From positions 1 through 64,000 of the forward strand of contig MHBF01000077.1 in the NCBI GenBank assembly GCA_001803225.1: DNA of 64,000 bases, in the 5' to 3' direction. Each line of letters opens with the position of its first letter. Within the stretch, counting starts at the first letter, position 1. Position numbers and translations under genes: made by a program. This stretch comes from Lentisphaerae bacterium GWF2_44_16. Its GTDB lineage: Bacteria > Verrucomicrobiota > Lentisphaeria > Victivallales > GWF2-45-14. The notes beneath the pieces were generated by a model. The model made no database searches. It saw only the letters and a program-made list of their open reading frames with translations, and was not told where the DNA came from. Shown here piece after piece: positions 7,208 through 40,112 of this stretch.

Positions 7208-7209
7208 TT

Positions 7210-7896
7210 ATGATCAGCAATACTGAAAAGAAAACTTTTATGAGCAGGCTATGGTATTTTACTTTAGTCGAACTTCTAATAGTTATTGCTGTAATAGCGA
7301 TTCTTGCCGGCCTTTTACTGCCGGCCCTGAGAAGCGTAAAGCTCAAAGCCGGAGAAATAGCATGCCTCGGCAATCTGAAACAATTAGGTATCGCCAACAT
7401 GAGTTATGTCTCTGATGCTTCCGAATACCTTCCATATAGCGTAACGGATTATCAATTATGGGATTATTTGCTTATGCCGTATATGGATTATCCTCAGGAT
7501 AGCGCCGCGGCCGGGGGAAAAAGCGGATACAGTATATTTCATTGCCCCTCGGGGATGCCCACTACTCAAGTAGCTTCAAAATTCAGAAGTCGCGGGTATT
7601 CTTACAATCACAATCTTACGTATTCAACAGCATCCAAGTTAAATAATATCAGTTCTACCAGTAAAAAACTAATTATTGCGGATTCTGCCGGAAGCCTTAA
7701 CGACCTTGAATATTGGACCTTTTGCAAACCCACTCATGCAGCTATGGTAGATCGTTACGGTTATCTGAAAAATCTGATATACCGTCATAATGATAAAACA
7801 AATGTCCTGTTTGCAGATGGTCATGGGAAAAATGTGTCAAGAGCGTTTTATGATACAAGTTATATTGAATGGGTTCCCGAGGATGTAGAATGGTAA
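7210..7896 (+). CDS. Prepilin-type N-terminal domain protein with C-terminal H-x(n)-DGH motif
   Basis: YFTLVELLIVIAVIAILAGLLLPAL; RHNDKTNVLFADGH. Confidence 0.92.
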   Translation: MISNTEKKTFMSRLWYFTLVELLIVIAVIAILAGLLLPALRSVKLKAGEIACLGNLKQLGIANMSYVSDASEYLPYSVTDYQLWDYLLMPYMDYPQDSAAAGGKSGYSIFHCPSGMPTTQVASKFRSRGYSYNHNLTYSTASKLNNISSTSKKLIIADSAGSLNDLEYWTFCKPTHAAMVDRYGYLKNLIYRHNDKTNVLFADGHGKNVSRAFYDTSYIEWVPEDVEW

Positions 7897-7924
7897 CTGA
7901 GTATATGCAGGATTTAATAAAATT

Positions 7925-8698
7925 ATGAAAAAGAAATGTTTAATTATAGCGTACTCACGGTCAGGTTCTCTTATTTGTCAACAGACAATCCTGGTAAAGG
8001 AGATGAAAAGGGGGAGATTTTTCACGCTCATCGAATTGCTCATAGTGATTTCCATAATAGTAATCCTTGCGGGTCTACTTTTACCGGCTTTGCAGAGAGC
8101 GAAAGACTCTGCCAAAAAGACATTGTGTACCGGAAACTTGAAACAGATAAAGATAGGATTTGAAGAATATGCTGTTGATTTTAACAGTAATTATCCCGCC
8201 CCTCTCCTCTCTGAAACCGGAAATTACTGGAGCAATATCATCTACAGTTTATATTTAAGCAATAAGGGACTTGTCACTCTGGGAACTGATCCCTGGGGAT
8301 ATGTCACTTATCGAAACTATATCGATTACGGCCGGGGAGAAAATGGTACTCCATTACTGTGCCCTATTAAGCCTGAATATTCCGGCGCCTGGAAACTTTC
8401 ATATGTCATGAGCCAGCAACTATGCAGTTCGGCAGGAACTTATGACTCAACATATACTGATTATAAAAATCTCAGCAGAATCATATACCCTTCTGAAGCA
8501 ATGCTTGTTATGGATGCTCCAGGAGAAGGACCATTTATGAGACGTTATAACTATGAAGATGTCGGCATGTCAACACAGCTTCACAATCAAGGGAAAAATG
8601 TTCTCTTCTCTGATGGACATATTAGATGGTATAGCGCTTTGAAAATACCAGATATAACACTGGGAAAAGGACGTTTTTGGACAGGTACTGATCTATAA
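7925..8698 (+). CDS. Prepilin-type N-terminal domain protein with C-terminal H-x(n)-DGH motif (true start may be ATG within MKRGRFFTLIELL)
   Basis: FFTLIELLIVISIIVILAGLLLPALQ; LHNQGKNVLFSDGH. Confidence 0.92.
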   Translation: MKKKCLIIAYSRSGSLICQQTILVKEMKRGRFFTLIELLIVISIIVILAGLLLPALQRAKDSAKKTLCTGNLKQIKIGFEEYAVDFNSNYPAPLLSETGNYWSNIIYSLYLSNKGLVTLGTDPWGYVTYRNYIDYGRGENGTPLLCPIKPEYSGAWKLSYVMSQQLCSSAGTYDSTYTDYKNLSRIIYPSEAMLVMDAPGEGPFMRRYNYEDVGMSTQLHNQGKNVLFSDGHIRWYSALKIPDITLGKGRFWTGTDL

Positions 8699-8710
8699 AC
8701 GGAGGGAATT

Positions 8711-11700
8711 ATGTTTAATAAAAAAATATTGGCGGTCATGTTCTTTGCGGTTTCATTCATTTGTGCTTACTGCGAGGAAAAATCTGAAAAGGCAAATCTT
8801 TCATTTCTTAGAGGTATGCCCGATGAACCGTGGTGGAGAAATGAATATGAAAATAGAATTCCCATTTTGATAACGGAGACGGCCGGGCTGAAGCGGTATG
8901 CTGACCCGATATGCATTGATCTGGAATTTCCTGTCAATACTAATCCGAACTCTATCCGGGTACTGACAGTTTCCGGGAAAGAATTGCCATCGCAGATAAA
9001 TGTTAAAAAGGAAAACGGAGTGGAAATTTCTTTTTCCATTACCCTTGAGAAACATGAGAATGTCCCGCTTTTCATATATTTCAGCAAAAATACGGAAATT
9101 AAACCGGCCGTTTATGAAACTGACCTTTCCATCAGGGATAAAAAAGAATACTATGAAATAAGCAATAATTTTCTGAAAGTGGAAATACTGAAAAAACCGG
9201 GAGAAAAACATTGGCCCAGGCAAGGCCCTTCATTTATAAAAAGAATTCATATTATGGGTTCGGCTGTTGATAATGAGTTATGTCCGAGGGAGCCGGACAG
9301 GGCATGGGCCGGCCATGTGCTTAAAAATCTTACTTTCGATACGGCAGAATTAATTGAAGACGGGCCTGTCAAAAAAACAATTCTATTTAAAAGTAATTCT
9401 GTTCTGCTGAGTTATACCCTTTATAATCAATCAAACAGACTTGATTACAAAATAAAACCCCTCGCGGAAACAACACAGGTAAATACGCATACGGGTTGGG
9501 CCCCTTATGGAGACTTGAAGAACGATATTGTTTTATATGAGGACTCCAAGGGGCTTAAGTCGCTTCCGGGATGTACAGGCGAGGTTACGGGAAGTACAAG
9601 CTCTTATCCGGAATACAGTAATTTGCGTCCCTCCCTTACTGAAGGATGGATAGCCTTATCTGATAAAAGAGGCGAAACTGTCGGAGAATTTTTCAGCCTG
9701 GAAAAATGTTTTAAATGTTCTGTCTGGATACACCACCTGCTCGGAGGGGGGAATGTACATTTGACTTTTAAATCCTCATCTCCGATAACAGGCGCGTTGT
9801 CGGCAATTATTGGAAATGGAGAAGCATTTCGTGATAATTACTTGTCATGGAGGCATCCTCCGGTTATAAGCGTTGCTGCCGTCCAGAAAAACAACGGAAA
9901 AACTTTTAAAGCCCCTCGTTATGATATTGACAATGTCAGAGAAATTCTCATTGATACTACCAGGCGCGGCGCCCGTGAAAACAGCAAAACGGCTGAGGCA
10001 TGGGTGGACAAAATGCAAAGCATGGGGGCGAATTCAATAAAACTTGGAATCCATGAAATCGTCTGGCCGACATCGCATGAAGCCGCCATGAAAGATCCGG
10101 GCAGGACAGATTATCTGGTTGAATTTACCGATGCCGCCCACAAACGGGGAGTAGCTGTCCGCTTATGGGGAAATTACCTGAAAAAATATAAAGAAAAAGG
10201 TGTTCTGGAGAGTTTCTGCGACCAGAAAATAAAACAGCGGATTATAGAAGATTTCATAGAGATGGCAAAAGCCGGCATTGACATGGTTTATCTGAAAACA
10301 GGGGATGAAAATCATCATCTTATGCGTATGCAACTTATCAAAGAATTCCGGGAAGGGTTTAAAAATACATATGGCATAGAATTCCCTGAAATAAAAAGCA
10401 AAAAACAAGATTTTGAAATGAGGACAAAAGGAGCTCCTGATTGTTACCCGTTTCTATATATGGAAATCCAATATAATCAGTTTACAAAAGAATTATCAGA
10501 AGCAATCAGGACAGCCGTACCTAATGTCCCTCTAGGTATTCTCTGCAGTGGTTCAGGGGCGTTGAAAAGAGACGTTGACATTGAAGAAAAAGCCCGGTAC
10601 TTGGATACAATTGATACTGAGCTCGTTTTAAATGACGAAGCTCCTGATCTGGCGCATTTGAAATATGGCATCAGGTTCCCATTGGGCGCGCTCGGTAACA
10701 GAGGGAAATCAGTTCAACATCATTTTTATTTTGAAAAACCATCAGAGAGAATGAAAACAGTCGAAATGGAACTTCCCTTAATCTTTGGTATAAAATCCTT
10801 TTGCCATGAGACGATCGATTATGAATTGATGGACCCGAAATTCTTTGAAGGTACACAAGCTTTTTATAAGTTTTTGAATTTTACCGGGATTGACAAGTTT
10901 TTACAGGGCGCTGCCCCGTTGAAATTTACGGCAGTGTTCAGAGACAGAAATGCTTATTTGGATGATATCGTAAAGGGAAATATCGAAGCTGGCATGAGTA
11001 TCCATGAATACAGGGCCAGAGGACTTATGGGTATCCGCAATATCCCAATGGACATAATAGTCAATCGTTTTTTCTCTCCACAGGAATTGAAAAAATACAA
11101 ACTTTTGATAATTCCGAATGATCAGTGCCTTTCTGAAAAATCGGCTGCCGCTGTAGACGAATATGTAAAAGAAGGCGGTATCCTTTTGACAGAAGGTGAA
11201 ACCATAAATAATCATGTGATAGCGGATATTGCCGGAGTGAAAAAAACGGGAGAAGTGAAAAAAAAGGGAATAATTAAAACATCTTCTGTTTTAGCTTCCG
11301 GCATTACACAAATAGAAGCAGAAAAAAGGGTTTCAGTTGTCCCCATGAAACCTGTCGAAATCCTCGCAACAGATCAGAAAAATAATCCGGCTCTGCTTTT
11401 AAGTAAATACGGAAAAGGAAAAGTATTATATTCCCCGTTTATTCTTACTGACGGAATACCATCTTTAGGCAATAAAACAAAATTCATGGAGAAAATTATA
11501 GGGTTTTTGTCTGAACCCCTTCCCATGCAAATAGCTGACGGACAGGAAATTGAATCAAGCATACTCAAAAACGGAAATGAATATCTGCTTGGCGTTTATA
11601 ACCCGTCACAAAAAGAAACTGATTTTGTTCTCAAACTTTCTATCCCAGTGACGGACAGTTATAAAATTTTGGCTTTTGATAACGGAAACGTGATAGATTT

Positions 11701-11827
11701 TACAGATAGGCTTTCTATAACTTTAAAGCCGATGCAGGTAAAATTATATCTTATAACGCCGGAAGCTTTATTGAAAATGCCACAAGCAACAGCATGTCCC
11801 AATAAGACAGGTTATTCCTGTCCATAA
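8711..11827 (+). CDS. Large secreted putative glycoside hydrolase: N-terminal beta-sandwich-like region, TIM-barrel-like region, C-terminal GATase-like domain
   Basis: Signal peptide; TIM-barrel-like middle (MGANSIKLGIHEIVWPT...GVAVRLWGNY...GIDMVYLKTGDEN); beta-galactosidase-trimerisation-like LLIIPNDQCLSEKSAAAVDEYVKEGGILLTEGE. Confidence 0.6.
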   Translation: MFNKKILAVMFFAVSFICAYCEEKSEKANLSFLRGMPDEPWWRNEYENRIPILITETAGLKRYADPICIDLEFPVNTNPNSIRVLTVSGKELPSQINVKKENGVEISFSITLEKHENVPLFIYFSKNTEIKPAVYETDLSIRDKKEYYEISNNFLKVEILKKPGEKHWPRQGPSFIKRIHIMGSAVDNELCPREPDRAWAGHVLKNLTFDTAELIEDGPVKKTILFKSNSVLLSYTLYNQSNRLDYKIKPLAETTQVNTHTGWAPYGDLKNDIVLYEDSKGLKSLPGCTGEVTGSTSSYPEYSNLRPSLTEGWIALSDKRGETVGEFFSLEKCFKCSVWIHHLLGGGNVHLTFKSSSPITGALSAIIGNGEAFRDNYLSWRHPPVISVAAVQKNNGKTFKAPRYDIDNVREILIDTTRRGARENSKTAEAWVDKMQSMGANSIKLGIHEIVWPTSHEAAMKDPGRTDYLVEFTDAAHKRGVAVRLWGNYLKKYKEKGVLESFCDQKIKQRIIEDFIEMAKAGIDMVYLKTGDENHHLMRMQLIKEFREGFKNTYGIEFPEIKSKKQDFEMRTKGAPDCYPFLYMEIQYNQFTKELSEAIRTAVPNVPLGILCSGSGALKRDVDIEEKARYLDTIDTELVLNDEAPDLAHLKYGIRFPLGALGNRGKSVQHHFYFEKPSERMKTVEMELPLIFGIKSFCHETIDYELMDPKFFEGTQAFYKFLNFTGIDKFLQGAAPLKFTAVFRDRNAYLDDIVKGNIEAGMSIHEYRARGLMGIRNIPMDIIVNRFFSPQELKKYKLLIIPNDQCLSEKSAAAVDEYVKEGGILLTEGETINNHVIADIAGVKKTGEVKKKGIIKTSSVLASGITQIEAEKRVSVVPMKPVEILATDQKNNPALLLSKYGKGKVLYSPFILTDGIPSLGNKTKFMEKIIGFLSEPLPMQIADGQEIESSILKNGNEYLLGVYNPSQKETDFVLKLSIPVTDSYKILAFDNGNVIDFTDRLSITLKPMQVKLYLITPEALLKMPQATACPNKTGYSCP

Positions 11828-21269: not shown

Positions 21270-22220
21270 ATGAAAAAAATCAAGACACTCATAAGCATGA
21301 TAGAGCCGCGTCCTGAAATAATGAAACTTCTCTCGGAAATAGAGGATTACGCTGATATCAGCTTCCTCGGAGATGGAGAAAATATCGGCGAGAGGCTTGA
21401 GGGAGTGGAGGTGCTCTACGGTTCAATTCCCGAAAAGGATTTTGAAAAGGCCTCCAGCGTCCGCTGGATACAGACCAATTCAACAGGAGTGGAACACATG
21501 ATGTATCCGGCCTTCAAAAACAGCGATATCATTCTGACCAATGCCGGGCCGTCCATTACCACAATCGTGGCCGAACATGCCCTTGCGATGCTCTTTGCCC
21601 TGGCGCGCAACCTGCATATACAGAGAGACTACATGCATGAACACAAATGGGAAATAGACTGCGGCGTCGAGATAGGCGGCCTTTCCCTGGGAATACTCGG
21701 TTTCGGGAGGATAGGCATGGCCATGGCGGTACGTGCCGCGGCATTCGTAAAGGAACTTCACGTGCTTGACGTAAAAGTGCCGGAAAAACCTGATTACGTC
21801 AAAAAAGTCTATAGTTTCGATGAACTCCCTGTTCTTCTAAAAAACTGTAATGCCGTAATATGCTCTCTGCCATTGACCCAGCAGACAAAAAATATGATAA
21901 GCGATAATGAAATGGCGATGATGCCGGACCGTTCATATATTGTGAACATAAGCAGGGGAGGAGTAGTTGACGAAGCCGCTCTCATCAGGGCGCTTCGGAA
22001 AGGCAAACTTGCCGGTGCCGGACTTGATGTTACGGAACAGGAACCGTATCCCGCGGACGGGCCCTTGTGGGACGCTCCCAGGCTTCTTCTTACCCCCCAC
22101 AGTGCCGGGTACTGCGAACGCCTGAAGGAGAGAAAAATAATTCAGTTCATCAAAAACTTCAAGGCATACGTGAAGGACGGCAAAGTCCCCGGAAGCCTTG
22201 ATAAAAACAGGGGCTGGTAA
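21270..22220 (+). CDS. D-isomer-specific 2-hydroxyacid dehydrogenase
   Basis: LGILGFGRIGMAMA, YIVNISRGGVVDEAALIRALRKGKLAGAGLDVTEQEP. Confidence 0.93.
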   Translation: MKKIKTLISMIEPRPEIMKLLSEIEDYADISFLGDGENIGERLEGVEVLYGSIPEKDFEKASSVRWIQTNSTGVEHMMYPAFKNSDIILTNAGPSITTIVAEHALAMLFALARNLHIQRDYMHEHKWEIDCGVEIGGLSLGILGFGRIGMAMAVRAAAFVKELHVLDVKVPEKPDYVKKVYSFDELPVLLKNCNAVICSLPLTQQTKNMISDNEMAMMPDRSYIVNISRGGVVDEAALIRALRKGKLAGAGLDVTEQEPYPADGPLWDAPRLLLTPHSAGYCERLKERKIIQFIKNFKAYVKDGKVPGSLDKNRGW

Positions 22221-24512
22221 TCAGAATATTTTGCTGAGGACGTAGAGAGCGAGGAGGGCTTCTTCACAGGTGGTCTTTTCCTCCTCAAATTTTCTATATC
22301 TCAAAATAGCGAGAAGCCATAGCGAATAATTGAGCGTATGGTTTTCATTGAGAAGTTTGTCATCGGCGGCCCTGTTGAAATCATCGTAAGTCCAGTCATA
22401 AATATTGACGCATTTCATTTTGTCATATTTGATTTCAGGACAATAATACTTGAACCCCAGATTGAAACATATTCTGATAAACTCGTCATAATCGGCTTCG
22501 TCAAATTCATTGAGGAGATCTTCAAGGATTTTTATGTCTTCGCTTTTATCGGGAAGCTTCTTTCTTATTCTTTCCACAAATATTTCAGAGATGGAACCCG
22601 GCTGTTTTTTTTCTCTGAGGAGAAAATTATAGAATTCGCCGACAGTACCGACCACATTGGCGAGGGCTACGCAGAACTGCATTCTTATGGATGGCTTCAT
22701 TATTTCCCTGAACTTGGGCAATATAAGGGTAATGACGGAAATATCATCGAATTTGCCGAGCGCGTCAGCTATCGCGGCAAGCAGAAAAAGATTTTGCTCT
22801 TTTGTAAAAGCGTTCTTCAATTCGTTCAGTGTTTCAATGGCTTTTATTTCCCCGAGCGCGAAAGCGGCGCCGCCCCTCAATCCTTTTTCCTGTGAATTAA
22901 GCGCTTTCAGCAGGGATGGTATTGCTTTTACGCTTTTCAGGCGTCCCAGTGAATAAGCGGCCCCGGTGGCGAGCCCGCTCTCTTCGTCTTCAAGTTTTTC
23001 CATCAGGGCTTTTTCACTGTCTGGGTGTTTGATGAAGCCGAGACTGTTTACCGCGCTGTAACGTACCGGAGGGGCCGGGTCGTCCAGGGCTTCAATTACT
23101 TCCGGCAGAAAAAGGCTGCTTCTGTTTCTCGATATGAAGTTGAGCCTGTCCTGAAACGACATTTTTCCCGTTACATCCACAAGTCTGAAAAATGTCCGGA
23201 GAGGGTTTCCCTCAAGAAAAGTCGTTACCGTACTCCAAGCCGAGCCTTCGGGACCTGCTCTGTACGGGGTAAGCAGCAGCGCGCAGACAGGCATGCTCAG
23301 CGCGCTTATCATGATTATGAAATGGTAAGCGCTGAACTTGACGCCGGGAAGCTCTATCTGGGAATTTGCGAAAAAGTCCATGCAGACGCCTGAAAACAAG
23401 GCCCCGAGAAAACCGGCGAGGCCCGCGATACTGAAAAAAAGAGCCATGAAAACGGAACGGTTTTTCTGCGGAGTTTCAGCGGTGAGTATGGCAAAGACCG
23501 CCGTAATAAGCCCGGCATTGAGAAAGCCTCCGTAAATGAAAACAAAAACCGGCATCCACAGGGGTGTGCTTTCCCTTATGAAAAGAAAACCTGTAAACTC
23601 GAAAGTTTTCAGCAGTGTGGTTATGATTATCACCGGCTTGTTGCCTTTCTGCGCGGCTATGGCGGACCAGAAATAACTGCCGAGAAAGGAAGCCAGCGAT
23701 GAAAAAACAGCGTATATCTGTATAAGCGTGTTGGAGTAGCCCAGGTTTTTCAGGAGATATATATAAAAGAACGCTATGAAAAAAGAACAGATAAAGGTGA
23801 AAAAGCTGTAATAGCTGATAAAGCTTCTGAAATTGTAATCGGAAAGAGCTTCCCTTATCATCCTGAACGGCCTGATTTTTTCTCCTGTAATTTCCGCTTC
23901 CATCTTAGGAATGCCGAAATAAAAAAATATCTCGGCCAGAGACATGAGCGCTCCCGCAAAGAGAAGCACACTGATGACAAAACTTCCGTTTCTGCCGATA
24001 TCCAGACTGAAACCTATAAAGAGACTGACGAATATGGCGGCTATGAACGTTATGGCGTTTCTTTTGCCCCAGAAACCCGCATTTTCCCTTTGCGGAACTA
24101 AATCACCTATCCAGCTGAACCATACAGGTACGCTCAATGAGGAAAACAGATGTGTGATGAAAAAAAGGATTATGAAAATCGTGTTAATCAGAGAGTTTGC
24201 GCCGCCTGTTTTCATGATTATTATAAATCCGAGTAGAAAGAGAAGCGAACGCGAAAGCAGGGCCGCTGATATGTAAATCCCCTTTCGTCTGCCCCAGTAA
24301 ACGGCAAGGAAAGCTGAAATCAGCTGGAACGGCAGGACTATATTGGGTATCGAATTGACCAGGCCTATCTGAAAGTTGCTCAAATCCAGAAATATGCAGA
24401 GCACCGAGAGGAAAAGACCACAGCAGATAAGGTTTGAATAAAGCACCGGAAGCGCCCCGGTATAAATCACCGTCGCGCTTATCCTGCGTATTTGTCTTGC
24501 GCTTAAAAACAT
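22221..24512 (-). CDS. MFS-type transporter fused to C-terminal HEAT-repeat domain
   Basis: About 12 hydrophobic segments, then HEAT repeats (LFLPEVIEALDDPAPPVRYSAVNSLGFIKHPDSEKALMEKLEDEESGLATGAAYSLGRLKS...). Confidence 0.88.
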   Translation of the reverse strand: MFLSARQIRRISATVIYTGALPVLYSNLICCGLFLSVLCIFLDLSNFQIGLVNSIPNIVLPFQLISAFLAVYWGRRKGIYISAALLSRSLLFLLGFIIIMKTGGANSLINTIFIILFFITHLFSSLSVPVWFSWIGDLVPQRENAGFWGKRNAITFIAAIFVSLFIGFSLDIGRNGSFVISVLLFAGALMSLAEIFFYFGIPKMEAEITGEKIRPFRMIREALSDYNFRSFISYYSFFTFICSFFIAFFYIYLLKNLGYSNTLIQIYAVFSSLASFLGSYFWSAIAAQKGNKPVIIITTLLKTFEFTGFLFIRESTPLWMPVFVFIYGGFLNAGLITAVFAILTAETPQKNRSVFMALFFSIAGLAGFLGALFSGVCMDFFANSQIELPGVKFSAYHFIIMISALSMPVCALLLTPYRAGPEGSAWSTVTTFLEGNPLRTFFRLVDVTGKMSFQDRLNFISRNRSSLFLPEVIEALDDPAPPVRYSAVNSLGFIKHPDSEKALMEKLEDEESGLATGAAYSLGRLKSVKAIPSLLKALNSQEKGLRGGAAFALGEIKAIETLNELKNAFTKEQNLFLLAAIADALGKFDDISVITLILPKFREIMKPSIRMQFCVALANVVGTVGEFYNFLLREKKQPGSISEIFVERIRKKLPDKSEDIKILEDLLNEFDEADYDEFIRICFNLGFKYYCPEIKYDKMKCVNIYDWTYDDFNRAADDKLLNENHTLNYSLWLLAILRYRKFEEEKTTCEEALLALYVLSKIF

Positions 24513-24544
24513 TGTAAACCTTGTATATTATCTGGGCCCCATTC

Positions 24545-24638
24545 CCTTCGCAAACGAAGTTGAGCGAAGATAATAAATAGGACTCCGTCCTCCTTTGCAA
24601 ACAAAGTTGAGCGAAGACAATCAACGGGACTCCATCCC
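24545..24638. repeat. Two tandem 47-bp units, each containing a hairpin with compensatory changes
   Basis: Unit 1 CCTTCGCAAACGAAGTTGAGCGAAGATAATAAATAGGACTCCGTCCT; unit 2 CCTTTGCAAACAAAGTTGAGCGAAGACAATCAACGGGACTCCATCCC. Confidence 0.9.
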
Positions 24639-24718
24639 ATTGATTTTATATCTTAAGGATGTATTTTCATAGAGTAAATTGCTATTTTCTTATAAAAATT
24701 AACCCCGGAGCATCTGAA

Positions 24719-25438
24719 ATGGGAAAAAAATTCATATATAAACGCGTTCTCCTGAAAATAAGCGGAGAAGCCCTCAAAGGCAAACAGGAACACGGCTACA
24801 ACGCAGAAGCCGTAAGCACTGTGGTTGACAGAATAAAAGCGGCGATGGACAATAAAATCCAGATGGCGCTGGTAGTCGGCGCTGGAAATGTCTGGCGCGG
24901 AGTCAACGGGAAAAACTGGGGCATGGACAGGGTAAGCGCCGATTACATGGGCATGCTTGCCACTGTCATGAACGCGCTTTGTCTGAGAGACGCTCTTAAT
25001 TCAAAAGGAGTGCAGGCCGTAGTGCAGACTTCCATCCCGATGTCCCCGATAGCGGAACCCTTTGACCGCCTGAAAGCCATAAAACATCTCGAAAAAGGCA
25101 GGGTGGTTATTTTCGCGGGGGGAACCGGAAGCCCGTATTTTACGACAGATACGACAGCATCGCTCCGTGCGCTGGAAACAAACTGCGAAGCAGTCCTCAA
25201 AGCCACCAAGGTTGACGGCATTTATACCGCCGACCCCATGAAAAACCCGGACGCGAAACGTTATGAAAAACTTTCTTTCGATGAAGCTATTTCAAAAAAA
25301 CTGGCGGTGATGGACCTGACGGCTTTTTCAATGTGCAGCGAGAACAAACTTCCCATAATAGTCTTCAACTTTTCTGACCCCGGAAGTCTCACGAAAGTAC
25401 TCGGCGGGGATTTGAGCATAGCTACTGTAGTGGAATAA
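24719..25438 (+). CDS. pyrH: UMP kinase
   Basis: YKRVLLKISGEALKG, VVGAGNVWRG, FAGGTGSPYFTTDTTASLRA, DGIYTADP. Confidence 0.97.
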   Translation: MGKKFIYKRVLLKISGEALKGKQEHGYNAEAVSTVVDRIKAAMDNKIQMALVVGAGNVWRGVNGKNWGMDRVSADYMGMLATVMNALCLRDALNSKGVQAVVQTSIPMSPIAEPFDRLKAIKHLEKGRVVIFAGGTGSPYFTTDTTASLRALETNCEAVLKATKVDGIYTADPMKNPDAKRYEKLSFDEAISKKLAVMDLTAFSMCSENKLPIIVFNFSDPGSLTKVLGGDLSIATVVE

Positions 25439-30080: not shown

Positions 30081-30200
30081 ATCCTTGCCGGTCAACGATA
30101 TATTGCGGAAAATCATCTGCTGACTTAATCATAAAGTCTTTCTCTCAATATTAAATCATCTTTTTTAATAAAATACATACAAAATAATCACTTGGAGCTA

Positions 30201-30228
30201 TTGACTTAGTCAGGATTTGTGATATAAT
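30201..30228 (+). promoter_or_regulatory. Candidate promoter TTGACT-16-TATAAT
   Basis: TTGACT 30201-30206, TATAAT 30223-30228. Confidence 0.6.
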
Positions 30229-30259: not shown

Positions 30260-31606
30260 ATGAAAAAAGACAAAATATCAATAGTCCGTTCTTATATCCT
30301 GGAACAGATTGAAAACGGTTCTTTCAGGAAAGGTGAGAAGATTACCGGCGCTCGCGAAATAGCATCACTCATAGATGTATCTTTCCTGAAAGTTCAGCAG
30401 GGCACTGAAACCCTTGTGAGGGATGGAATACTTGAAAGCGCCGGACGCGTCGGTACCTTTGTATCAAAAGAATGGCAAAATACCATTCCCAGAGATTCCA
30501 TTAAAACTATCTATTCAAAGTATCCATGGTATTCAGAGTTCAAGGAATTACTGGAGTCTGAAATGCCCAAATGTCTTATCTGCAACGAATTGACGCATGG
30601 TGTTTTTGAAATAAATACCACTATAAATGCCCAAAGCAGGCAAAATGAATATATGGACCTCAGCCGGATATTTGATACGATTTATCCTGACAAATCAGAC
30701 TTCTTCATGCAACCTTTTCGCAGTTTTTATTCGGGGAACAAGCTTTTCGGCATACCTTTTATTTTTTCGCCGCGTGTCATGTTTTACAACAGGGAACTTT
30801 TATCAGAAGGCGGCTGTGAAGAACCGTCAGACGCCTGGACATGGGATGATTTTATAAACAGCATAAGAATACTGAAAAAGACATTTCCCCCTGAAAAGAT
30901 ATTCAACTGGACAGTTCAGGGATGGGGCAATTTCATATTTATGTCCGGAGGCTCTCTCATGCGTCCTTTGGAAAAAGACCCTGTCAGGATTGACAGCCCC
31001 GAAACAATAGACGGTCTCATGAAATATGCAGCCTTGAAAAAGGAAATGGAAATAAAAGATATCGCTAAAATATCGGACTTTGCCTATGACAGAGAACGCT
31101 TTGTTAAAGGTGAGATGGTTTTTCACATAGCGCCCAGGCAGATTATGACGTTTCTCAAAAATTCGGACTTCAGGAAATGGGGCAACGTCCCGATGCCCGG
31201 AAGAAAATTCACCAGTCAGGCCACTGACGTGATATGTGTAAGAAAATCTCTTGCCGATTTTCAGACGGCCTCGGATTTTGTAAGACTAATGCTGTCTCAG
31301 GAAATGCAGGACTTCATGGCGTCCAGATTTTATGCGATACCGGTACGCAAATCTTCCGCTTTCAAAAGCATCGATTTCGATCATCCCGGCGACACTATAT
31401 TCCTTGATGAAATACCTTATATGACCGCCGACTACAATCTGGCTTCCCCTGAAATATCTGAAATGTTGCGTTGCGGCCTTGAAGGCATATTCGAAACAGA
31501 TTGCGACATAGAAAAAGCCGTCCGTGAAGCGGCCGCCGCACTGCGGACTGTTCTACGTTTTAAAAATAATAATGGAAACTCCCTTAAATATCAGGAGGCT
31601 GTATGA
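30260..31606 (+). CDS. GntR-type HTH fused to extracellular-solute-binding-protein-like (SBP family 1) domain
   Basis: N-term [51 protein letters not shown]-term [43 protein letters not shown]. Confidence 0.85.
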
Positions 31607-32259
31607 AAAAAAGAAAAGGCAGGAAATATAAATTTACGCTTATCGAGCTCCTCGTTGTGATAGCGATTATAGCAATTTTAGCGGCAATGCTCCTGCCGTC
31701 TTTGCAGAAAGCGAGAGATACTGTCAAGCAGACCGCATGCAAAAACAACATGAAGCAATTCGGGGTGGCGCTTTTCCAATACACAGGCGAAAGCGCAGAT
31801 ATAATGCCGCTGGGCAATGTATATCCTCAGATACTTCTGCTCCCGGTAATATATCCGGATAAACGCATTGACAATTTTGAAATCAAAACCCTGTTCTGGT
31901 GTCCATCGGCGAAAGCGGACGAATATGCCGCAACGGTTACGGGGGCTCAGATGCAGCAGACTTGTATAGACTATCAGGCGAAACTTACCAATACTTATTC
32001 TTTTTGCCAGTCCCCTTCTGAACTAGGTCCTGTAAAAATAACCATGTTCAGCAAGCCTTCCAAATTTATATATGCCGCGGATGGCAAGGGCTCATTCAGA
32101 TTCTCCCAGTTTGATTTCGACGGACATGTCTTTTACAGGCATCCTTCCAATTCCCTCAGTGCTCTTTTCCTTGACGGGCATGTGGATGGGAAAAAATATA
32201 AACCCACAGTAACTGGGGCCCTCACTCAAAGTGGAATGCTCTCCGGTGAATTCAACTGA
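31603..32259 (+). CDS. Prepilin-type N-terminal domain protein with H-x(n)-DGH motif
   Basis: [46 protein letters not shown]; 4-bp ATGA overlap with upstream gene. Confidence 0.95.
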
Positions 32260-32289
32260 TAATAATTTTACAAATTAAAAAGGAGATAG

Positions 32290-35200
32290 TTGATGAGAAA
32301 ATTACTAAGCGGCCTTTTCGTTTCCTCACTCTGTATTTTGACTATTAACGCTGAAACTGTTCCGCTGACTTTGCAGAACCCTTCAAAGACTGAATACAAA
32401 AACTGGCCCCTTACTTTTGGTGTTCCCTTCGCAAAGGACGCCGTAAGTTCCGGTGATAAATTCATCCTCAAAGACTCATCTGGAAAAGAAATTCCGATAC
32501 AGACTGAAATTACTTCAACATGGAGTCTCAATGGTCCCGCCCGCTGGCTTTTGATTGATTTTCCAGCTGACCTGAACGGCTCTGAAAAACAAAACTACAC
32601 CTTTGAATACGGGAAAGATTTAAAAAACATTACTCCCGGTAAATCTATAACTGTAAAAAATATCGAACAGCCTTTTTCAGGTTACGAAATTCAGAACGAT
32701 TTTTTGAAACTGACAGTACGCAAAGACGCCTTCAACCTCTTTGATAGCGTTACGGCAAACGGCAAAGTGCTGGTCAAGGAAGCGAAGGATTCAGGCCCCT
32801 ATATTATTGACGCTTCGGGCAAGACATACATGGCGGCATGGGGCCAGCCTGACGAAGTGAAGATTGAAGAGGCCGGGCCTCTGCGTGTTGTTGTCTGCGC
32901 CAAAGGTTGGTATTATGCCAAAGACGGCGAGAAATTCTGCCGTTACCTTGTCAGGACTCATATTTTCGCCGACCAGCCGTTTGTCAAAGTCCTTTACACT
33001 TTCATAATAAGCGGCGATACCGACCGCGCCAAATTCAAGGACATAGGATTAAGCGTCCCGGTGGAAAGCGCGAAAGCCGTTTTCGGCGGGCTTGAAGGAA
33101 AAGCGTATCAGTCCTCTGGCAAATCGCAATATCTCCTCCAGTACGACTGCGACAAATTTGCCGTGCGCAAAGACGGAGAAACTCTTGAATGGGACAAAAA
33201 TCCCGATGGGAAAAAAGCCCCCGGCTGGATAAAGGTTTCGGGAAACAACGGTTCAGTTCTGATGTCTGTAAGGGATTTCTGGCAGCAGTTCCCGAAGGAG
33301 CTGGAATTCACGGATAAGTCACTTGTTTTTCACGCCTGGCCCTCGCACGGAATAGCAAAGACCGACAGAAAAATCGAAGACGCGATGATCCAGTATCTCT
33401 GGTTTGTTCACGAAGGAAAAGTCCTGGATTTCAAAGTCCCTGAAAGCTATATAAAGCACAAGGAGGGCCATTCTGAATATGAATACAGATATCTGGCTTC
33501 TGGCGCAAAGGCCAACTGCATGGGATTGGCGAAAACCCATGAACTGCTTTTTGCCTTTGAGAGCGCAGACAGCAAAAAAGATGATAAGATACTTGCGCTG
33601 TGGGACAGGACGCCTTCGTGCCTGGCATCTCCCGAATACATGTGTTCGACGGGTGTTTTTGGAAAGCTTCATCCTTATGACATCCAGAAATTCCCTGAAG
33701 TCGAAAAGGGCCTTTCAAGGGCGTTCGACTGCGAAAGGAGATTGGAAGACCACACAAGGGATTACGGGATGTTCAACTATGGTGACGGGCATACCGGATG
33801 GGACTTCAAGAGAAACAGGTGGTCGGACGTTTATCGCTGCTGGAGAGCGTTTCATCACGGCGCTCCGAGGGTGCCTTGGATATTGTACGTCCGCTCCGGC
33901 GACAGAAAATATCTTGATTTCGGCATACGCAGTGCCAGGCATCTCATGGATATAGATGTCTGCAATTATACAATACCTGAATTGGAAAAGAAGCCCTATC
34001 CTGACGGAAAAATTCTTGGCGCTTTGAATGATTACAAAGGTATTGTGCACTGGCATTCAGGCTCAAGGCTCTTCGATTATAATACACTGACCGATTTCAT
34101 GCTCTATTATTATTATCTGACAGGCGACAAAAAGGGTCTGGAAGCCGCAGTACAATGGGGAGAATCTGTAAAGAAAAGATACAACAAACCTTTTGGTCAC
34201 AGGGAAGGCGCCGGGACTACTTCGTCTCTTATAGATCTCTATCAGGCAACCTGGGATGAGGGATACAAAAAAATCATAGACAAACAAATGGAATACATGC
34301 TGTCCACGCAAAATATGGAAGAGAAAAACCAGAACGCAACAGCGCCGAAACAGAATTCTGATAACAAGGCTTTAAGCAACAGCGAACTTCCCTACGGCGC
34401 ATTTCCCCAGTGGGAAAACTATGCCCCGTGGATAGAGAAATACTGGCTTCTGACGGGTGATGAAAAAACAGGACAGAGAATTGTCGCATGGGCTGACGCG
34501 TACATCGCCGGATGGGGCGATTCATGTTCGCAGTACGGCGGAATACAGGTCAATATCCCGGCATACGCGTACTTTGTCAGCAAAGATCCGAAGTATCTTT
34601 CATACGGGATGAAACTGATGAATAATTTTATCAGCAGTATAGAGAATTCACCGGGATCGCTGATGGACGGTTTTGCACACAGTGGTCAAGTATCTCTCGG
34701 ATATGGTTATATGGCCCAGAGGCTTCCGTATTTACTGCAGGCTCTTTCCGAAGCAAAGGAACCGATAAAGGAAGATTGGAGCACATCTGATAAATTCTCT
34801 TTGCCTTTCAGTCTTATTTTCTCAAATAAGAATAAAACTCAGAACATTGATTTTATCCTGTTTGATGAAAAAGATGCTGATTTTAAAATTATCCTTGGCG
34901 GAATTGTAACTTATACAGATAAAAGTCCAATAAAAGTAACGGTGGTATCTCCTTCGGGGAAAAAAGTGGCGGAAAAGGACTTTACTCCTGGTAAAGGTTC
35001 CTTCGATCTTTCTCTGGCAGTCGCTCCTGACGGCGAAAAAGGCGCATACAAAGTGACTGTTTCGCGCAAAGGAAGTTACTGGTATCTTGCTAATCCAGTA
35101 AAAACAGAACCCGTTCTTAAAGCGGTTTTTCCTGTAACAAATAAAGTCTTTGTCACAAAGAATGGAAGCGGGGCTGGTTTTTATTTCATGGTCCCGGAGA

Positions 35201-35469
35201 AAGTGAAATCTTTTACTGTTAAAACCGTATCGAATGGTTATTTCGCTGTCTTTACCCCGGACGGTCAGTTGGCTGCAAAGGTAACATCGACGCCTGGAAA
35301 GGAAACCATCACTGAGGTAAAAACGAAACCGGATCAAACTGGAAAACTTTGGGGGCTGAGAGGCGATTTTGAAGGTTGTACTATGGAATTCTCAAGCAAA
35401 GACGCGGAGATACCGCCTTATTTCGCGACAAATCCTGAATTATTTTTTACACCAAAATCAAATAAATAA
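32290..35469 (+). CDS. Secreted PcRGLX/YetA-like (PL26-type exo-rhamnogalacturonan lyase-like) protein
   Basis: Signal peptide; VPLTLQNPSKTEYKNWPLTFGVPFAKDAV...IPIQTEITSTWSLNGPARWLLIDFPADL RIFT-barrel-like start; alpha/alpha-barrel-like middle (HHGAPRVPWILYVRSGDRKYLDFG). Confidence 0.75.
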   Translation: MMRKLLSGLFVSSLCILTINAETVPLTLQNPSKTEYKNWPLTFGVPFAKDAVSSGDKFILKDSSGKEIPIQTEITSTWSLNGPARWLLIDFPADLNGSEKQNYTFEYGKDLKNITPGKSITVKNIEQPFSGYEIQNDFLKLTVRKDAFNLFDSVTANGKVLVKEAKDSGPYIIDASGKTYMAAWGQPDEVKIEEAGPLRVVVCAKGWYYAKDGEKFCRYLVRTHIFADQPFVKVLYTFIISGDTDRAKFKDIGLSVPVESAKAVFGGLEGKAYQSSGKSQYLLQYDCDKFAVRKDGETLEWDKNPDGKKAPGWIKVSGNNGSVLMSVRDFWQQFPKELEFTDKSLVFHAWPSHGIAKTDRKIEDAMIQYLWFVHEGKVLDFKVPESYIKHKEGHSEYEYRYLASGAKANCMGLAKTHELLFAFESADSKKDDKILALWDRTPSCLASPEYMCSTGVFGKLHPYDIQKFPEVEKGLSRAFDCERRLEDHTRDYGMFNYGDGHTGWDFKRNRWSDVYRCWRAFHHGAPRVPWILYVRSGDRKYLDFGIRSARHLMDIDVCNYTIPELEKKPYPDGKILGALNDYKGIVHWHSGSRLFDYNTLTDFMLYYYYLTGDKKGLEAAVQWGESVKKRYNKPFGHREGAGTTSSLIDLYQATWDEGYKKIIDKQMEYMLSTQNMEEKNQNATAPKQNSDNKALSNSELPYGAFPQWENYAPWIEKYWLLTGDEKTGQRIVAWADAYIAGWGDSCSQYGGIQVNIPAYAYFVSKDPKYLSYGMKLMNNFISSIENSPGSLMDGFAHSGQVSLGYGYMAQRLPYLLQALSEAKEPIKEDWSTSDKFSLPFSLIFSNKNKTQNIDFILFDEKDADFKIILGGIVTYTDKSPIKVTVVSPSGKKVAEKDFTPGKGSFDLSLAVAPDGEKGAYKVTVSRKGSYWYLANPVKTEPVLKAVFPVTNKVFVTKNGSGAGFYFMVPEKVKSFTVKTVSNGYFAVFTPDGQLAAKVTSTPGKETITEVKTKPDQTGKLWGLRGDFEGCTMEFSSKDAEIPPYFATNPELFFTPKSNK

Positions 35470-35487
35470 AAAAGGAAAAAGGTAGAA

Positions 35488-36021
35488 ATGAGAACAAAGA
35501 TTTTAGTATTGGCAATAACGTCTCTCCTCTGGATGACGGCGTACAGTCAGGATCTCAGTATTTTTGAGGCGGCGCAGAAAAATAATCTGAACAAGGTCAG
35601 AGAATATAGCGGCAATGTGAACACTCCGGCGCAGGATGGAAGGGGCTGGACACCTCTGATAGCGGCGGCGTTCGCGGGACATGCCGACATGGTTAAGCTG
35701 CTCATAGAAAAAGACGCTGACGTCAACGCTAAAAGCAGCGGCAAGGGAGAGACCGCCTTAATGAGAGCAGTCGCATACCCCGAAATAGTAAAAATACTCC
35801 TCGATAAAAAAGCCGATATAAATATAGCAAACACCAGTACCGGATCTACAGCGTTGATGTTGGCAGCGGCGGCAGGCCATAAGGAAACAGTGAAAATACT
35901 GCTTGAGCACAAGCCTGATTTAAAAGTAAAAAATAAAGGCGGAAAAACGGCCCTGCAATGTGCCGCAAATGCTGAAATAACGGAGTTAATCAAAAATGCC
36001 GAAAGCATAAGTAATCAGTAG
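35488..36021 (+). CDS. Secreted ankyrin-repeat protein
   Basis: Signal peptide; repeats DGRGWTPLIAAAFAGHADMVKLLIEKDADVNAKS, GSTALMLAAAAGHKETVKILLEHKPDL. Confidence 0.92.
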   Translation: MRTKILVLAITSLLWMTAYSQDLSIFEAAQKNNLNKVREYSGNVNTPAQDGRGWTPLIAAAFAGHADMVKLLIEKDADVNAKSSGKGETALMRAVAYPEIVKILLDKKADINIANTSTGSTALMLAAAAGHKETVKILLEHKPDLKVKNKGGKTALQCAANAEITELIKNAESISNQ

Positions 36022-36046
36022 TTTTTTTAAAAAAGGATGATAATAG

Positions 36047-37615
36047 ATGAAGGCCTCCCCTGTATTTTCTTTCGCCCAAAAATTATATGAAAAAGAAATT
36101 GAAGCCGATATAAGGAATGATGCTTCGGATTGGTACGAGTTTTCAGTAGCGCCCGATGGAAAACTTGACGTAAAGGCCGGAACGGAAAGAGCTGTTCTTT
36201 ATGCGGTGTATGATGCTCTGGACGGAAAAAAATCGGGGAATGAAAAACCTGAATTTTCAATCCGCGGCCTTAACCCCTGCGAAAGCCTGAAAAGGCATAC
36301 AAAGGAACAGATAATAAAGCTGATTGACCGGATGGGCAGGTGGCGGATGAACACTATTATTATCCACTCAAACTACGGTTTTGTGAACCACAAAAATACA
36401 ATCGTGGAGGAATGCGCAAAAAGAGGGATTGAAATGACGCATTACACATATTCAAACCTTTCCTTCATGCGCGGTATTGAAAATACACACTTCGCGAAAG
36501 ACGAAAACGGAAAGCCCCTTTATGATAATCTGGAATGTGAAACAAGGCTCTGCGTAAACGACAAAGACGCTTTGAATAAATATGCTGAAGGCGTTAAAAA
36601 ATATCTCGGCGAACATTCTGATTACGAACGGATGCTCTTTGCCACGGCGGACGGACGCTCCCTTTGTCTGTGCCCGGCTTGCAGAAATAAAAACGCGATA
36701 GAACAATGGCAACCTGTATTCGATGTGTTTTTCGATACCGCTTACGGCAAACGCAAACTCGAAATGATATCCTATGTACAGCGTTTCAGCGTTCCTGCCG
36801 ATACATCAAGAATCAGCAAACTCGACAGTGTGATGTTTGATACACATATCCGCTATCCGAGAACTCCACTCGGGGTTTTTCATGAATTCATGAAAGAAGG
36901 TTATGATGTTGAAGTAAAAATGGACTCCCGGGCGGCACGGCCGGTAAATCTTTATCTGCTTGACAGGATTAAAGACTGGAGAAAGTCTTTCAGCGGTAAA
37001 CTTTATATCTTTGAAAATCTCATGATACAAGGCATTCTCGGCTGTCCCAGGCCCAATACTTCCGTTTACCTTGAGGATCTGAAAACTTTCAGGAAAGCTG
37101 GAGTTGACGGAGTGGTTTATGAATGTTTTGAACCTGGAATAAAGCCGTTTTTGAAATGTTTCGATAAAATAGCCGCCGCAATGTGGAACGTCAATGCCGT
37201 GTATGAAAAAGACAATTTTGAAAAAGCATATCTGGAGGATGGTGCTTCAGATACAGATCCCTGGGCAGTCTGGCCCGGATGCGAAAAATGGGACGGGGTG
37301 AGAAGCGATTATCCTATGTCCGAACTCTCTGTACTCTACTATAAGGTCATCAGATCTCCTGACAAGGATAATATTTTCAATATGATGGATTATGTCATGG
37401 AGCATGAAAACCGTGAGGACTTTGACTGGCTCTACATTTTATTTACAGGCATGAAAAAAGCCTTCAATATGGGATTCATCAGCCCTGAAAGTGAAAAGGA
37501 AAAACAGTTCCTCTGCATGAGAAAGCTCTGGGACTTTCAGGAATTGCGCCAAAATCCGCGGCAGGAGACTATAAATATTATCAAGTCTCTAATGGAGAAA
37601 GAACGTTCCAGCTGA
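36047..37615 (+). CDS. DUF4838/GH20-like TIM-barrel putative glycosidase without obvious signal peptide
   Basis: RAVLYAVYDALDG GlcNAcase-N-like; RMGRWRMNTIIIHSNYG; FATADGRSLCLCPACRN. Confidence 0.6.
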   Translation: MKASPVFSFAQKLYEKEIEADIRNDASDWYEFSVAPDGKLDVKAGTERAVLYAVYDALDGKKSGNEKPEFSIRGLNPCESLKRHTKEQIIKLIDRMGRWRMNTIIIHSNYGFVNHKNTIVEECAKRGIEMTHYTYSNLSFMRGIENTHFAKDENGKPLYDNLECETRLCVNDKDALNKYAEGVKKYLGEHSDYERMLFATADGRSLCLCPACRNKNAIEQWQPVFDVFFDTAYGKRKLEMISYVQRFSVPADTSRISKLDSVMFDTHIRYPRTPLGVFHEFMKEGYDVEVKMDSRAARPVNLYLLDRIKDWRKSFSGKLYIFENLMIQGILGCPRPNTSVYLEDLKTFRKAGVDGVVYECFEPGIKPFLKCFDKIAAAMWNVNAVYEKDNFEKAYLEDGASDTDPWAVWPGCEKWDGVRSDYPMSELSVLYYKVIRSPDKDNIFNMMDYVMEHENREDFDWLYILFTGMKKAFNMGFISPESEKEKQFLCMRKLWDFQELRQNPRQETINIIKSLMEKERSS

Positions 37616-37668: not shown

Positions 37669-37697
37669 TTGACATTGTTCATAATATAGTATAAAAT
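37669..37697 (+). promoter_or_regulatory. Promoter TTGACA-17-TAAAAT upstream of cobalamin riboswitch
   Basis: TTGACA 37669-37674, TAAAAT 37692-37697, 17-bp spacer. Confidence 0.75.
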
Positions 37698-37960: not shown

Positions 37961-38689
37961 ATGCTTATTTATAAGGACGGGACGTATCTGGTTGAAAAAA
38001 CAGACGGGCATGTGCATGTCTGTTTCAGTTCTCCAAGGCTGACGTTGAGTTCCGCCGTACTGAACGGCGGGGTCTGCCGTGCTTCACATCTCGTGAATAT
38101 GAAAGTTGACCAAAATTTTAACGGCGTGCGTACGGAATGCGGCCCTCCCGAAGAAGCATTGCTTGACTACATCAGACGCAACGGCTGGCAGGGCACTGCC
38201 GTGGGTATGATGACATCGACATTCATGGCGTCTTTCAGAATGACGCTTTCGAATGAACAGGATATTCATACAGCCGTTATATGCACCTCGGGACTGGCCA
38301 ACGCTAAACGGGCGGGAGACAGCGCCGAATACAGGTTTATGGCCCAGGAGGAAGATTACGCGCCCGCCGCCGGCACTATAAACCTCATCGCGATTACAGA
38401 TGCCAAACTTTCCCCGTCCGCCATGACCGAGGCTGTAATGATTATCACCGAAGCCAAGACTGCCGCCATGCAGGAGCTGGATGTCAAAAGTTATTCCAGC
38501 GGAAAAATTGCCACAGGCACCGGCACAGACAGCATAGCTGTGATAACAGGGGAAGGCCGGAATGTGAAGTATTGCGGAAAACATGTGATTTTTGGCGAAA
38601 TGCTCGCTAAAATGATTATTTCGACTATAAGAGATTCCGTATTGAAAAATGGTTCCGACTCCAATTTTCAGGAATTCAGAATAAACTAG
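37961..38689 (+). CDS. cbiZ: Adenosylcobinamide amidohydrolase
   Basis: SSAVLNGGVCRASHLVNMKV, VGMMTSTFMASF, CTSGLANAKRAGD, GTINLIAITDAKLSPSAMTEAVMIITEAKTAAMQELDV, TGTGTDSIAV. Confidence 0.92.
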   Translation: MLIYKDGTYLVEKTDGHVHVCFSSPRLTLSSAVLNGGVCRASHLVNMKVDQNFNGVRTECGPPEEALLDYIRRNGWQGTAVGMMTSTFMASFRMTLSNEQDIHTAVICTSGLANAKRAGDSAEYRFMAQEEDYAPAAGTINLIAITDAKLSPSAMTEAVMIITEAKTAAMQELDVKSYSSGKIATGTGTDSIAVITGEGRNVKYCGKHVIFGEMLAKMIISTIRDSVLKNGSDSNFQEFRIN

Positions 38690-38708
38690 TTAAAAGAAGG
38701 GATTGATA

Positions 38709-39560
38709 ATGTTTTCAAGGAAAAAGGCAGGAAGTATTTTCAGAGTTATGTTTTTTACGATTGTCGAGCTCCTGGTTGTGATAGGCATAATAGTGATACT
38801 GGCAGGAATTCTGCTGCCGGCACTGGTAAAGTCCAAAGACAAAGGGAAAAGCGCCAGTTGTATGTCAAACCTCAAACAGCTGGCCTTGGCGAATACTCAG
38901 TACTCAAATGATTTCAGCACTTATGTCTCATACAACCCCGGCCCTGTCGGTGGCAATGACGCCAGATGGCATGGGGTAAGAAAGGACAGCGGTTCTGATT
39001 TTGACCCTTCAAAAGGCCCTCTTGTTTCCTATCTTGGGGAAAGCGGCAAGGTTAAAGCCTGTCCCGGGATGCAGGATTTTGCCAGCGGTTTTGAAGCCGG
39101 ATGCGGGGGATACGGCTATAACGAGGCAGGCGTTGGTTCAACAAAATACCTCATAGGCTTTTCATGGCCTGATTATTCTCTGGTAACAGGCATGAAACCC
39201 GAAAAAATCGAAAACCCCGCATCAACTGTAATGTTCGCGGATGCCGCATACCTGAATTCGGGAGTTTTAATAGAATATTCTTCCGTTGAAGCCCCTTTTG
39301 CGCTTTGGGGGGCAACGACCGATAAGCTAAGGACCAAAAAGCCTACTTCCAGTTATTCTACTGCCACTGTACATTTCCGTCACGGGCGTTCAGCCAATAT
39401 TTCCTGGGTTGACGGACATGCCGACAGCCGCAAAATGACTTTTTCTCATACTTCCGGTATTTCCACCATCGCGGAACTCGAAAATGTCAATATAGGGAAT
39501 TTCGGTCCTGAGGATAATTCGCTTTATGATCCGTGGAACGACAATATACCTGAAAGCTGA
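38709..39560 (+). CDS. Prepilin-type N-terminal domain protein with H-x(n)-DGH motif
   Basis: FFTIVELLVVIGIIVILAGILLPALVKSKD; HFRHGRSANISWVDGH. Confidence 0.92.
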   Translation: MFSRKKAGSIFRVMFFTIVELLVVIGIIVILAGILLPALVKSKDKGKSASCMSNLKQLALANTQYSNDFSTYVSYNPGPVGGNDARWHGVRKDSGSDFDPSKGPLVSYLGESGKVKACPGMQDFASGFEAGCGGYGYNEAGVGSTKYLIGFSWPDYSLVTGMKPEKIENPASTVMFADAAYLNSGVLIEYSSVEAPFALWGATTDKLRTKKPTSSYSTATVHFRHGRSANISWVDGHADSRKMTFSHTSGISTIAELENVNIGNFGPEDNSLYDPWNDNIPES

Positions 39561-39575
39561 GAAAGGAGACTTTTT

Positions 39576-40112
39576 ATGCAGAATCTCAGAAAGACTTTCG
39601 TTAATTTAGGCGAAATGGTTATGGAAAAAAAGCTGGAATTTCGGAGAAAGCGCGAAAAAACCAGGCAGATAAAACGTTATTCGAAATCAGTGGTAAATAC
39701 AGTTGTTTTTCTGGCTGTATTCAGCGGCATGGGTTTTGTCTCATATAAAGTTTTCCACGATGAGAACAGGCGTCCGCCCGCTGTTTATACGGCACTTGAA
39801 GACCAGACTGAAATAAAAAAGATTTCAGCCTGTATTGAAGTGACTTTGAAAGACTATGTTTCCGGAGGTAAAAAATTCAGTCCGGAGAAACTTTCAGGAA
39901 TATCCCCTCAGATAACCGCGATATGGAACAGTCTTTTTCAGGATATCGCCAATCCCGGAACTGCCGTGGTACTGAACGTAAAGTCTATTTCCGGACATGA
40001 GAGTATTTTAAAGGCGGAGTGTGTCGCCGGTGAAAACGGTCGTTTTGTTTTTACCCTGCGCCGTGCGGGGAATAAGTTTTCGGTAATAGGCATAGACCGT
40101 CTCAGAAGCTGA
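39576..40112 (+). CDS. Hypothetical single-pass membrane protein
   Basis: Intact ORF 16 nt after pseudopilin-like gene; basic N-terminus then VVNTVVFLAVFSGMGFVSYKVF. Confidence 0.7.
   Translation: MQNLRKTFVNLGEMVMEKKLEFRRKREKTRQIKRYSKSVVNTVVFLAVFSGMGFVSYKVFHDENRRPPAVYTALEDQTEIKKISACIEVTLKDYVSGGKKFSPEKLSGISPQITAIWNSLFQDIANPGTAVVLNVKSISGHESILKAECVAGENGRFVFTLRRAGNKFSVIGIDRLRS

Follow-up and report, generated by a model that had tools for sequence, protein, structure and literature searches.

What does a type II pseudopilin do when its gene lies between that of a putative sugar sensor and that of a predicted secreted glycan lyase? The locus that raises this question is part of a 64,000-nucleotide stretch of the Lentisphaerae bacterium GWF2_44_16 genome (the window), in which five genes on the forward strand follow one another closely: a regulator (30260..31606), a type II pseudopilin (31603..32259), a secreted PcRGLX/PL26-like protein with a Sec-type signal peptide (32293..35469), a secreted ankyrin-repeat protein (35488..36021; PF12796, 111.7 bits) after an 18-bp gap and, after a further 25 bp, a 522-aa protein with weak, below-cut-off similarity to DUF4838 (36047..37615). 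The first three ORFs and the ATGA overlap between the regulator TGA and the pilin ATG (31603-31606) lie where a preliminary description had placed them; its spacing of 31 bp between pilin and enzyme also stands (30-33 bp), with the enzyme start better moved from TTG 32290 to ATG 32293, which is preceded by AAGGAG. An AGGAGG Shine-Dalgarno site serving the pilin itself lies inside the 3' end of the regulator gene. Judged from this layout, regulator, pilin, and enzyme are the head of one predicted operon, which probably extends through the ankyrin-repeat gene and the weakly DUF4838-like gene, its probable last member, to 37615; the following 11/12 sigma-70 promoter starts at 37669, past the end of that gene. 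No SusC/SusD pair was found by Pfam among the operon genes (30260-37615).

Elsewhere in the window, the 4370-11827 cassette had been proposed as a second local case of regulator, pseudopilin, and enzyme, which we do not uphold: a NAGidase/GH84-like enzyme with CBM9 (4370-7207) comes first, two pilins come next, then a GH42M-domain protein, and the GntR-PBP regulator (3129-4265) is divergent from the cassette. A third pilin in the window, at 38709, lies between a CbiZ gene on its 5' side and, on its 3' side, a gene for a 178-aa protein with no Pfam match; this group (37961-40112) lies behind the 37669 promoter, and its pilin has neither regulator nor enzyme.

The regulator carries an N-terminal GntR winged HTH (about aa 9-68; 28.8 bits against a Pfam cut-off of 27, with which the fold model agrees) joined to an SBP_bac_8/SBP_bac_1-like sugar-binding domain, also over cut-off. 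Its AF2 model (pLDDT 84.8) matches the fold of maltose/oligosaccharide-binding proteins (Foldseek E 1e-16), and because the protein has no signal peptide, the SBP-like domain should be cytoplasmic. SgrR-type transcription factors link a DNA-binding domain to a solute-binding-protein-like sensor. The regulator at 30260 resembles them in this pairing and differs in its components, a GntR HTH and an SBP_bac_8/1 domain. Further fusions of a GntR HTH to an ABC-type sugar-binding protein occur on contigs C68 (a paralogue, 47% identical), C105, C114, C81, C93, C187, C74, and C63, and the sequence regions examined around pilins hold 13 long GntR proteins with an SBP-type domain. Members of this fusion group probably serve as cytoplasmic sensors.

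The product of 31603..32259 has the N terminus of a pseudopilin, with the F1/E5 hydrophobic helix (TIGR02532, 21.9 bits; cut-off 16.3), an N_methyl Pfam match slightly above cut-off, and F11 aligned by profile with residue 1 of mature solved pilins. Its leader has Lys instead of Gly at position -1 (window 31630-31635). The GspG major pseudopilin equivalog TIGR01710 was not reached (32 bits against 88.85), and a weak DUF1559 match (PF07596, 24.7 against 23.3 bits) covers only positions 1-28 of 268. Across 96 paralogues, the F1/E5 features are invariant or nearly so, and the tails vary greatly but share a conserved H/D patch at the C terminus; the H/DG spacing is 10, and the pilin falls short of TIGR04294. 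The C-terminal half of the pilin is poorly modeled, and the best fold match of the model is a type IV pilus (E 0.17); the fold search matched the pilin helix and found no glycan-binding (lectin-like) fold.

For the adjacent enzyme, three PcRGLX models are over cut-off (PF21345, 75.5 bits; PF21346, 30.8; PF19501, 25.7), giving the three-domain PcRGLX architecture with the toroid domain partly covered, and no PDB sequence match was found. We predict that it is a PcRGLX/PL26-like rhamnogalacturonan lyase. In this genome, four of the seven PcRGLX genes directly follow a pilin and two more are one gene away. At 15 PcRGLX-homologue loci in other genomes, profile search found no adjacent pilin, a search that very diverged pilins could escape, and the regulator profile was likewise without a match near distant PcRGLX genes of other genomes.

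To place the locus in its genomic context, we took the pilin total from a DNA motif for the prepilin N terminus, which gave 171 matches in the 5.16-Mb genome and 0 in a reversed control, and took neighbor rates from 1.6-1.8 Mb around pilins, with other genes of the same regions as controls. Skipping tandem pilins and counting GntR, LacI, ROK, and AraC types, we observed an HTH regulator directly upstream on the same strand for 62 of 133 pilins, as against 50 of 720 other genes (Fisher P about 6e-27). Of the 61 regulator-pilin pairs, 24 have an exact -4 (ATGA-type) junction, against 52 of 845 other same-strand neighbors (P about 2e-12), and at least 39 of the genome's 100 GntR HTHs are directly followed by a pilin. 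In total, 97 of 162 pilins belong to an operon that has a regulator 5' of them, 19 more adjoin a divergent regulator, and 25 pilin operon starts have none. The regions around pilins contain 61 regulator-pilin-gene triads, bearing out the recurrence that the preliminary description had suspected from the window: the regulator-pilin-enzyme module recurs far above chance. We found no description of such triads in the literature searched, subscription papers lying outside that search. Among side observations, contig C168 carries four tandem pilin genes (22219-25139), and C2 is a small contig with foreign-looking gene content and possible contamination (binning figure 3.8%).

The genes downstream of pilins encode products with a median length of 817 aa, and 82 of 131 have a predicted signal peptide, compared with 259 of 888 others (by a crude heuristic predictor); the same heuristic detects none in the downstream gene of about one triad in three. 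Pfam matches among 57 triad downstream genes include DUF4838 (9), LamG_3 (8), CBM9 (8), GH42 (4), GH2 (4), GH20b (3), and PcRGLX (2).

Upstream of the regulator, the sigma-70 promoter TTGACT-16-TATAAT (30201..30228, forward strand) has 11/12 consensus positions, and its -35 box is overlapped by the palindrome TGACTTAGTCA (30202-30212), a candidate operator. A 10/11 repeat of this palindrome 81 bp away, TGACTTAATCA (30121..30131, unstranded), is a candidate upstream operator. Both fit TGACTTARTCA and are the sole two intergenic matches to this motif in 1.83 Mb. The -35 of the paralogous regulator gene on C68 carries TGACATGGTCA in the corresponding position of the promoter, with TGACATGGTTA 54 bp upstream. 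These elements suggest autoregulation of the 30260 regulator, for which the support is good yet circumstantial. Promoters of at least 11/12 precede 30 of the 49 pilin-operon lead regulators with enough upstream DNA for scoring, versus 29 of 390 other genes; the enrichment before other regulators is weaker (21/65). Promoter scores 5' of the enzymes were not above chance and equaled those of shuffled DNA, consistent with a single transcript beginning 5' of the regulator. Genome-wide, perfect 12/12 sigma-70 promoters are unusually frequent directly 5' of GntR/LacI-type regulators.

How far does this arrangement extend? Among 145 genomes of the phylum, prepilin motifs per genome have a median of 36.5 and reach 258 in the window's class, compared with a median of 7 and a maximum of 34 outside it. 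In three same-order genomes, a regulator is directly upstream of 20/30 pilins (controls, 5/94), whereas in two class-mates outside the order this holds for 2/32 pilins although pilins are numerous; one of these class-mates, G083, has tandem pilin arrays and few regulators. The expansion of pilins thus reaches beyond the regulator-pilin rule, and the rule itself appears to be a feature of the order.

Machinery that such pilins might share is encoded on other contigs. C84 carries a complete-looking T2SS operon (GspD, E, F, G, H, J, and more; assigned by sequence, gene order, and Pfam matches for the ATPase and secretin), C4 has PilB/PilT/PilC genes with ATPases that include the PilT type, and the one prepilin peptidase (PilD) detected in the genome is normal-looking (C118:7672-8514). 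Gly directly precedes the mature Phe in 7 of the genome's 171 prepilin motifs, and this scarcity is class-wide: 153/3150 motifs (4.9%) in the window's class have Gly(-1), as against 601/812 (74%) in the rest of the phylum. We found no description of this near-absence in the literature searched. The core T2SS pseudopilins on C84 also lack Gly(-1), having Ile, Phe, or Ala, which makes cleavage at non-Gly sites probable in this lineage. We considered Gly(-1) loss as a sign of unprocessed pilins and rejected it, since the core GspG/GspH/GspJ homologues on C84 are without Gly too; at the sequence level, the missing residue does not separate the expanded pilins from the core pseudopilins of the genome.

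Is each pilin dedicated to the enzyme beside it, as had been proposed? We compared the C-terminal parts of pilins across 124 pilin-gene units, with permutations as reference. Beside close enzyme paralogues, pilin similarity averages 79 bits versus 18 in permutations, which is expected because whole cassettes duplicate. Beside distant enzyme homologues the effect is small (23.1 versus 18.6 bits, P=0.02), and pilin similarity is weakly tied to regulator similarity (P=0.026). Several of the top pilin pairs adjoin unrelated genes (for example, C172/C98, 258 bits; C114/C143, 217 bits), and the pilin next to the closest paralogue of the 32293 enzyme (C105, 828 bits) is unrelated to the 31603 product (26 bits). 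On this test, in which like pilins stand beside unlike enzymes, we rejected strict pilin-enzyme coevolution, and one-enzyme-one-pilin pairing, strictly taken, is unlikely. The similar pilins beside unrelated enzymes, together with the PcRGLX loci without a pilin, indicate that pilins accompany inducible glycan operons, not a given enzyme family. Of the modular system put forward in the preliminary description, the recurrence (genome-wide and in same-order genomes) and the downstream signal peptides and carbohydrate-active domains stand; the dedication of each pseudopilin to its adjacent enzyme fails on the pairing test, the C105 paralogue with its unrelated pilin, and the 15 PcRGLX loci without one.

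We favor, at about even confidence, a reading in which the locus is a glycan-degradation operon, autoregulated and inducible by its substrate, whose co-expressed pilin would serve shared T2SS/T4P machinery as an exchangeable subunit. A cytoplasmic GntR repressor would block the strong promoter at 30201-30228 and sense an imported oligosaccharide through a domain that descends from the sugar-binding protein of an ABC transporter. Induction would then yield one transcript for the regulator, the pseudopilin, the secreted PcRGLX-like lyase, and probably two further proteins. The pseudopilin would enter the inner membrane, be processed by the sole detected prepilin peptidase, and become one of the exchangeable minor subunits of a shared structure, the T2SS pseudopilus or the T4P; there, at the cell surface, it may help to handle the glycan or the enzymes that act on it. 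Sequence lends good support to the predicted operon logic and co-expression, and co-induction of regulator, pilin, and enzyme is strongly suggested. From homology, we infer that the pilin may insert into the shared T2SS/T4P machine; the ligand of the regulator, and repression instead of activation, are likewise presumed, and the exact task of the pilin at the surface is a guess.

Bacteroidota SusCD-type PULs unite a sensor, a surface protein, and secreted enzymes in one inducible unit. The 30260-37615 operon similarly joins a sensor, a surface-type protein, and secreted enzymes, but it lacks SusC/SusD, and a pseudopilin occupies their place. We entertain, as a tentative extension, a pilin-based PUL counterpart, in which inducible operons would re-tool one shared T2SS/T4P with substrate-specific pilins, from a repertoire of about 170, according to diet.

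Somewhat doubtful, though a possibility, is glycan capture by an induced pilin that is built into a retractable T4P and binds the inducing polysaccharide through its variable C-terminal domain. The PilT-type ATPase, the diverse tails with their conserved H/D patch, and the sensor gene immediately followed by the pilin agree with it, whereas the pilin model lacks a lectin-like fold and pilin similarity tracks regulator similarity weakly. We consider it unlikely that T2SS export of each enzyme requires the adjacent pilin as a cargo-specific adaptor: a large, often secreted protein does directly follow the pilin in most cases, and close enzyme paralogues keep similar pilins, but like pilins adjoin unrelated enzymes, the same enzyme type occurs with unrelated pilins, homologous enzymes in other genomes have no adjacent pilin, and the products of some downstream genes look cytoplasmic. 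Least probable is a passenger role, in which duplication would carry the pilin along as a readily copied piece of the cassette that has little operon-specific function, as the isolated or tandem pilins (four in a row on C168; window 38709) and the G083 arrays might suggest, because the tight regulator-pilin-enzyme order with overlapping stop and start codons is repeated in sequence-diverged units and the layout is kept in three same-order genomes.

Two described pseudopilin expansions can be set beside the inducible operon with an exchangeable pilin that we propose. In Verruconatronum alginivorum, a pulG-like pseudopilin of the alginate-degradation cluster has 67 homologues, and a pseudopilin is overexpressed on alginate; these pseudopilins spread by gene transfer and duplication, and the T2SS is proposed as alginase exporter (PMC13274419). 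The expansion of PulG-like pseudopilins and their association with glycan clusters are alike, whereas the parts of that report considered here describe no recurrent regulator-pilin-enzyme unit, and the organism belongs to a different class and has fewer copies. DUF1559/H-X9-DG pilin-like families of Planctomycetes number 74 in R. baltica (PMC2754498) and 68 in P. limnophila (PMC10632474). They too are large with an unexplained role, and the 31603 pilin gives a weak DUF1559 match confined to the N-terminal part; by contrast, the H/DG spacing here is 10, and the portions of those reports drawn on here describe no link to regulators or glycan enzymes.

The near-loss of Gly(-1) in the class challenges the standard prepilin-processing rule. 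The operon rule links the pseudopilin families of the PVC group (Lentisphaeria, Planctomycetes, and some Verrucomicrobiota) to sugar-responsive regulators and glycan enzymes, and it renders the function of these large families testable.
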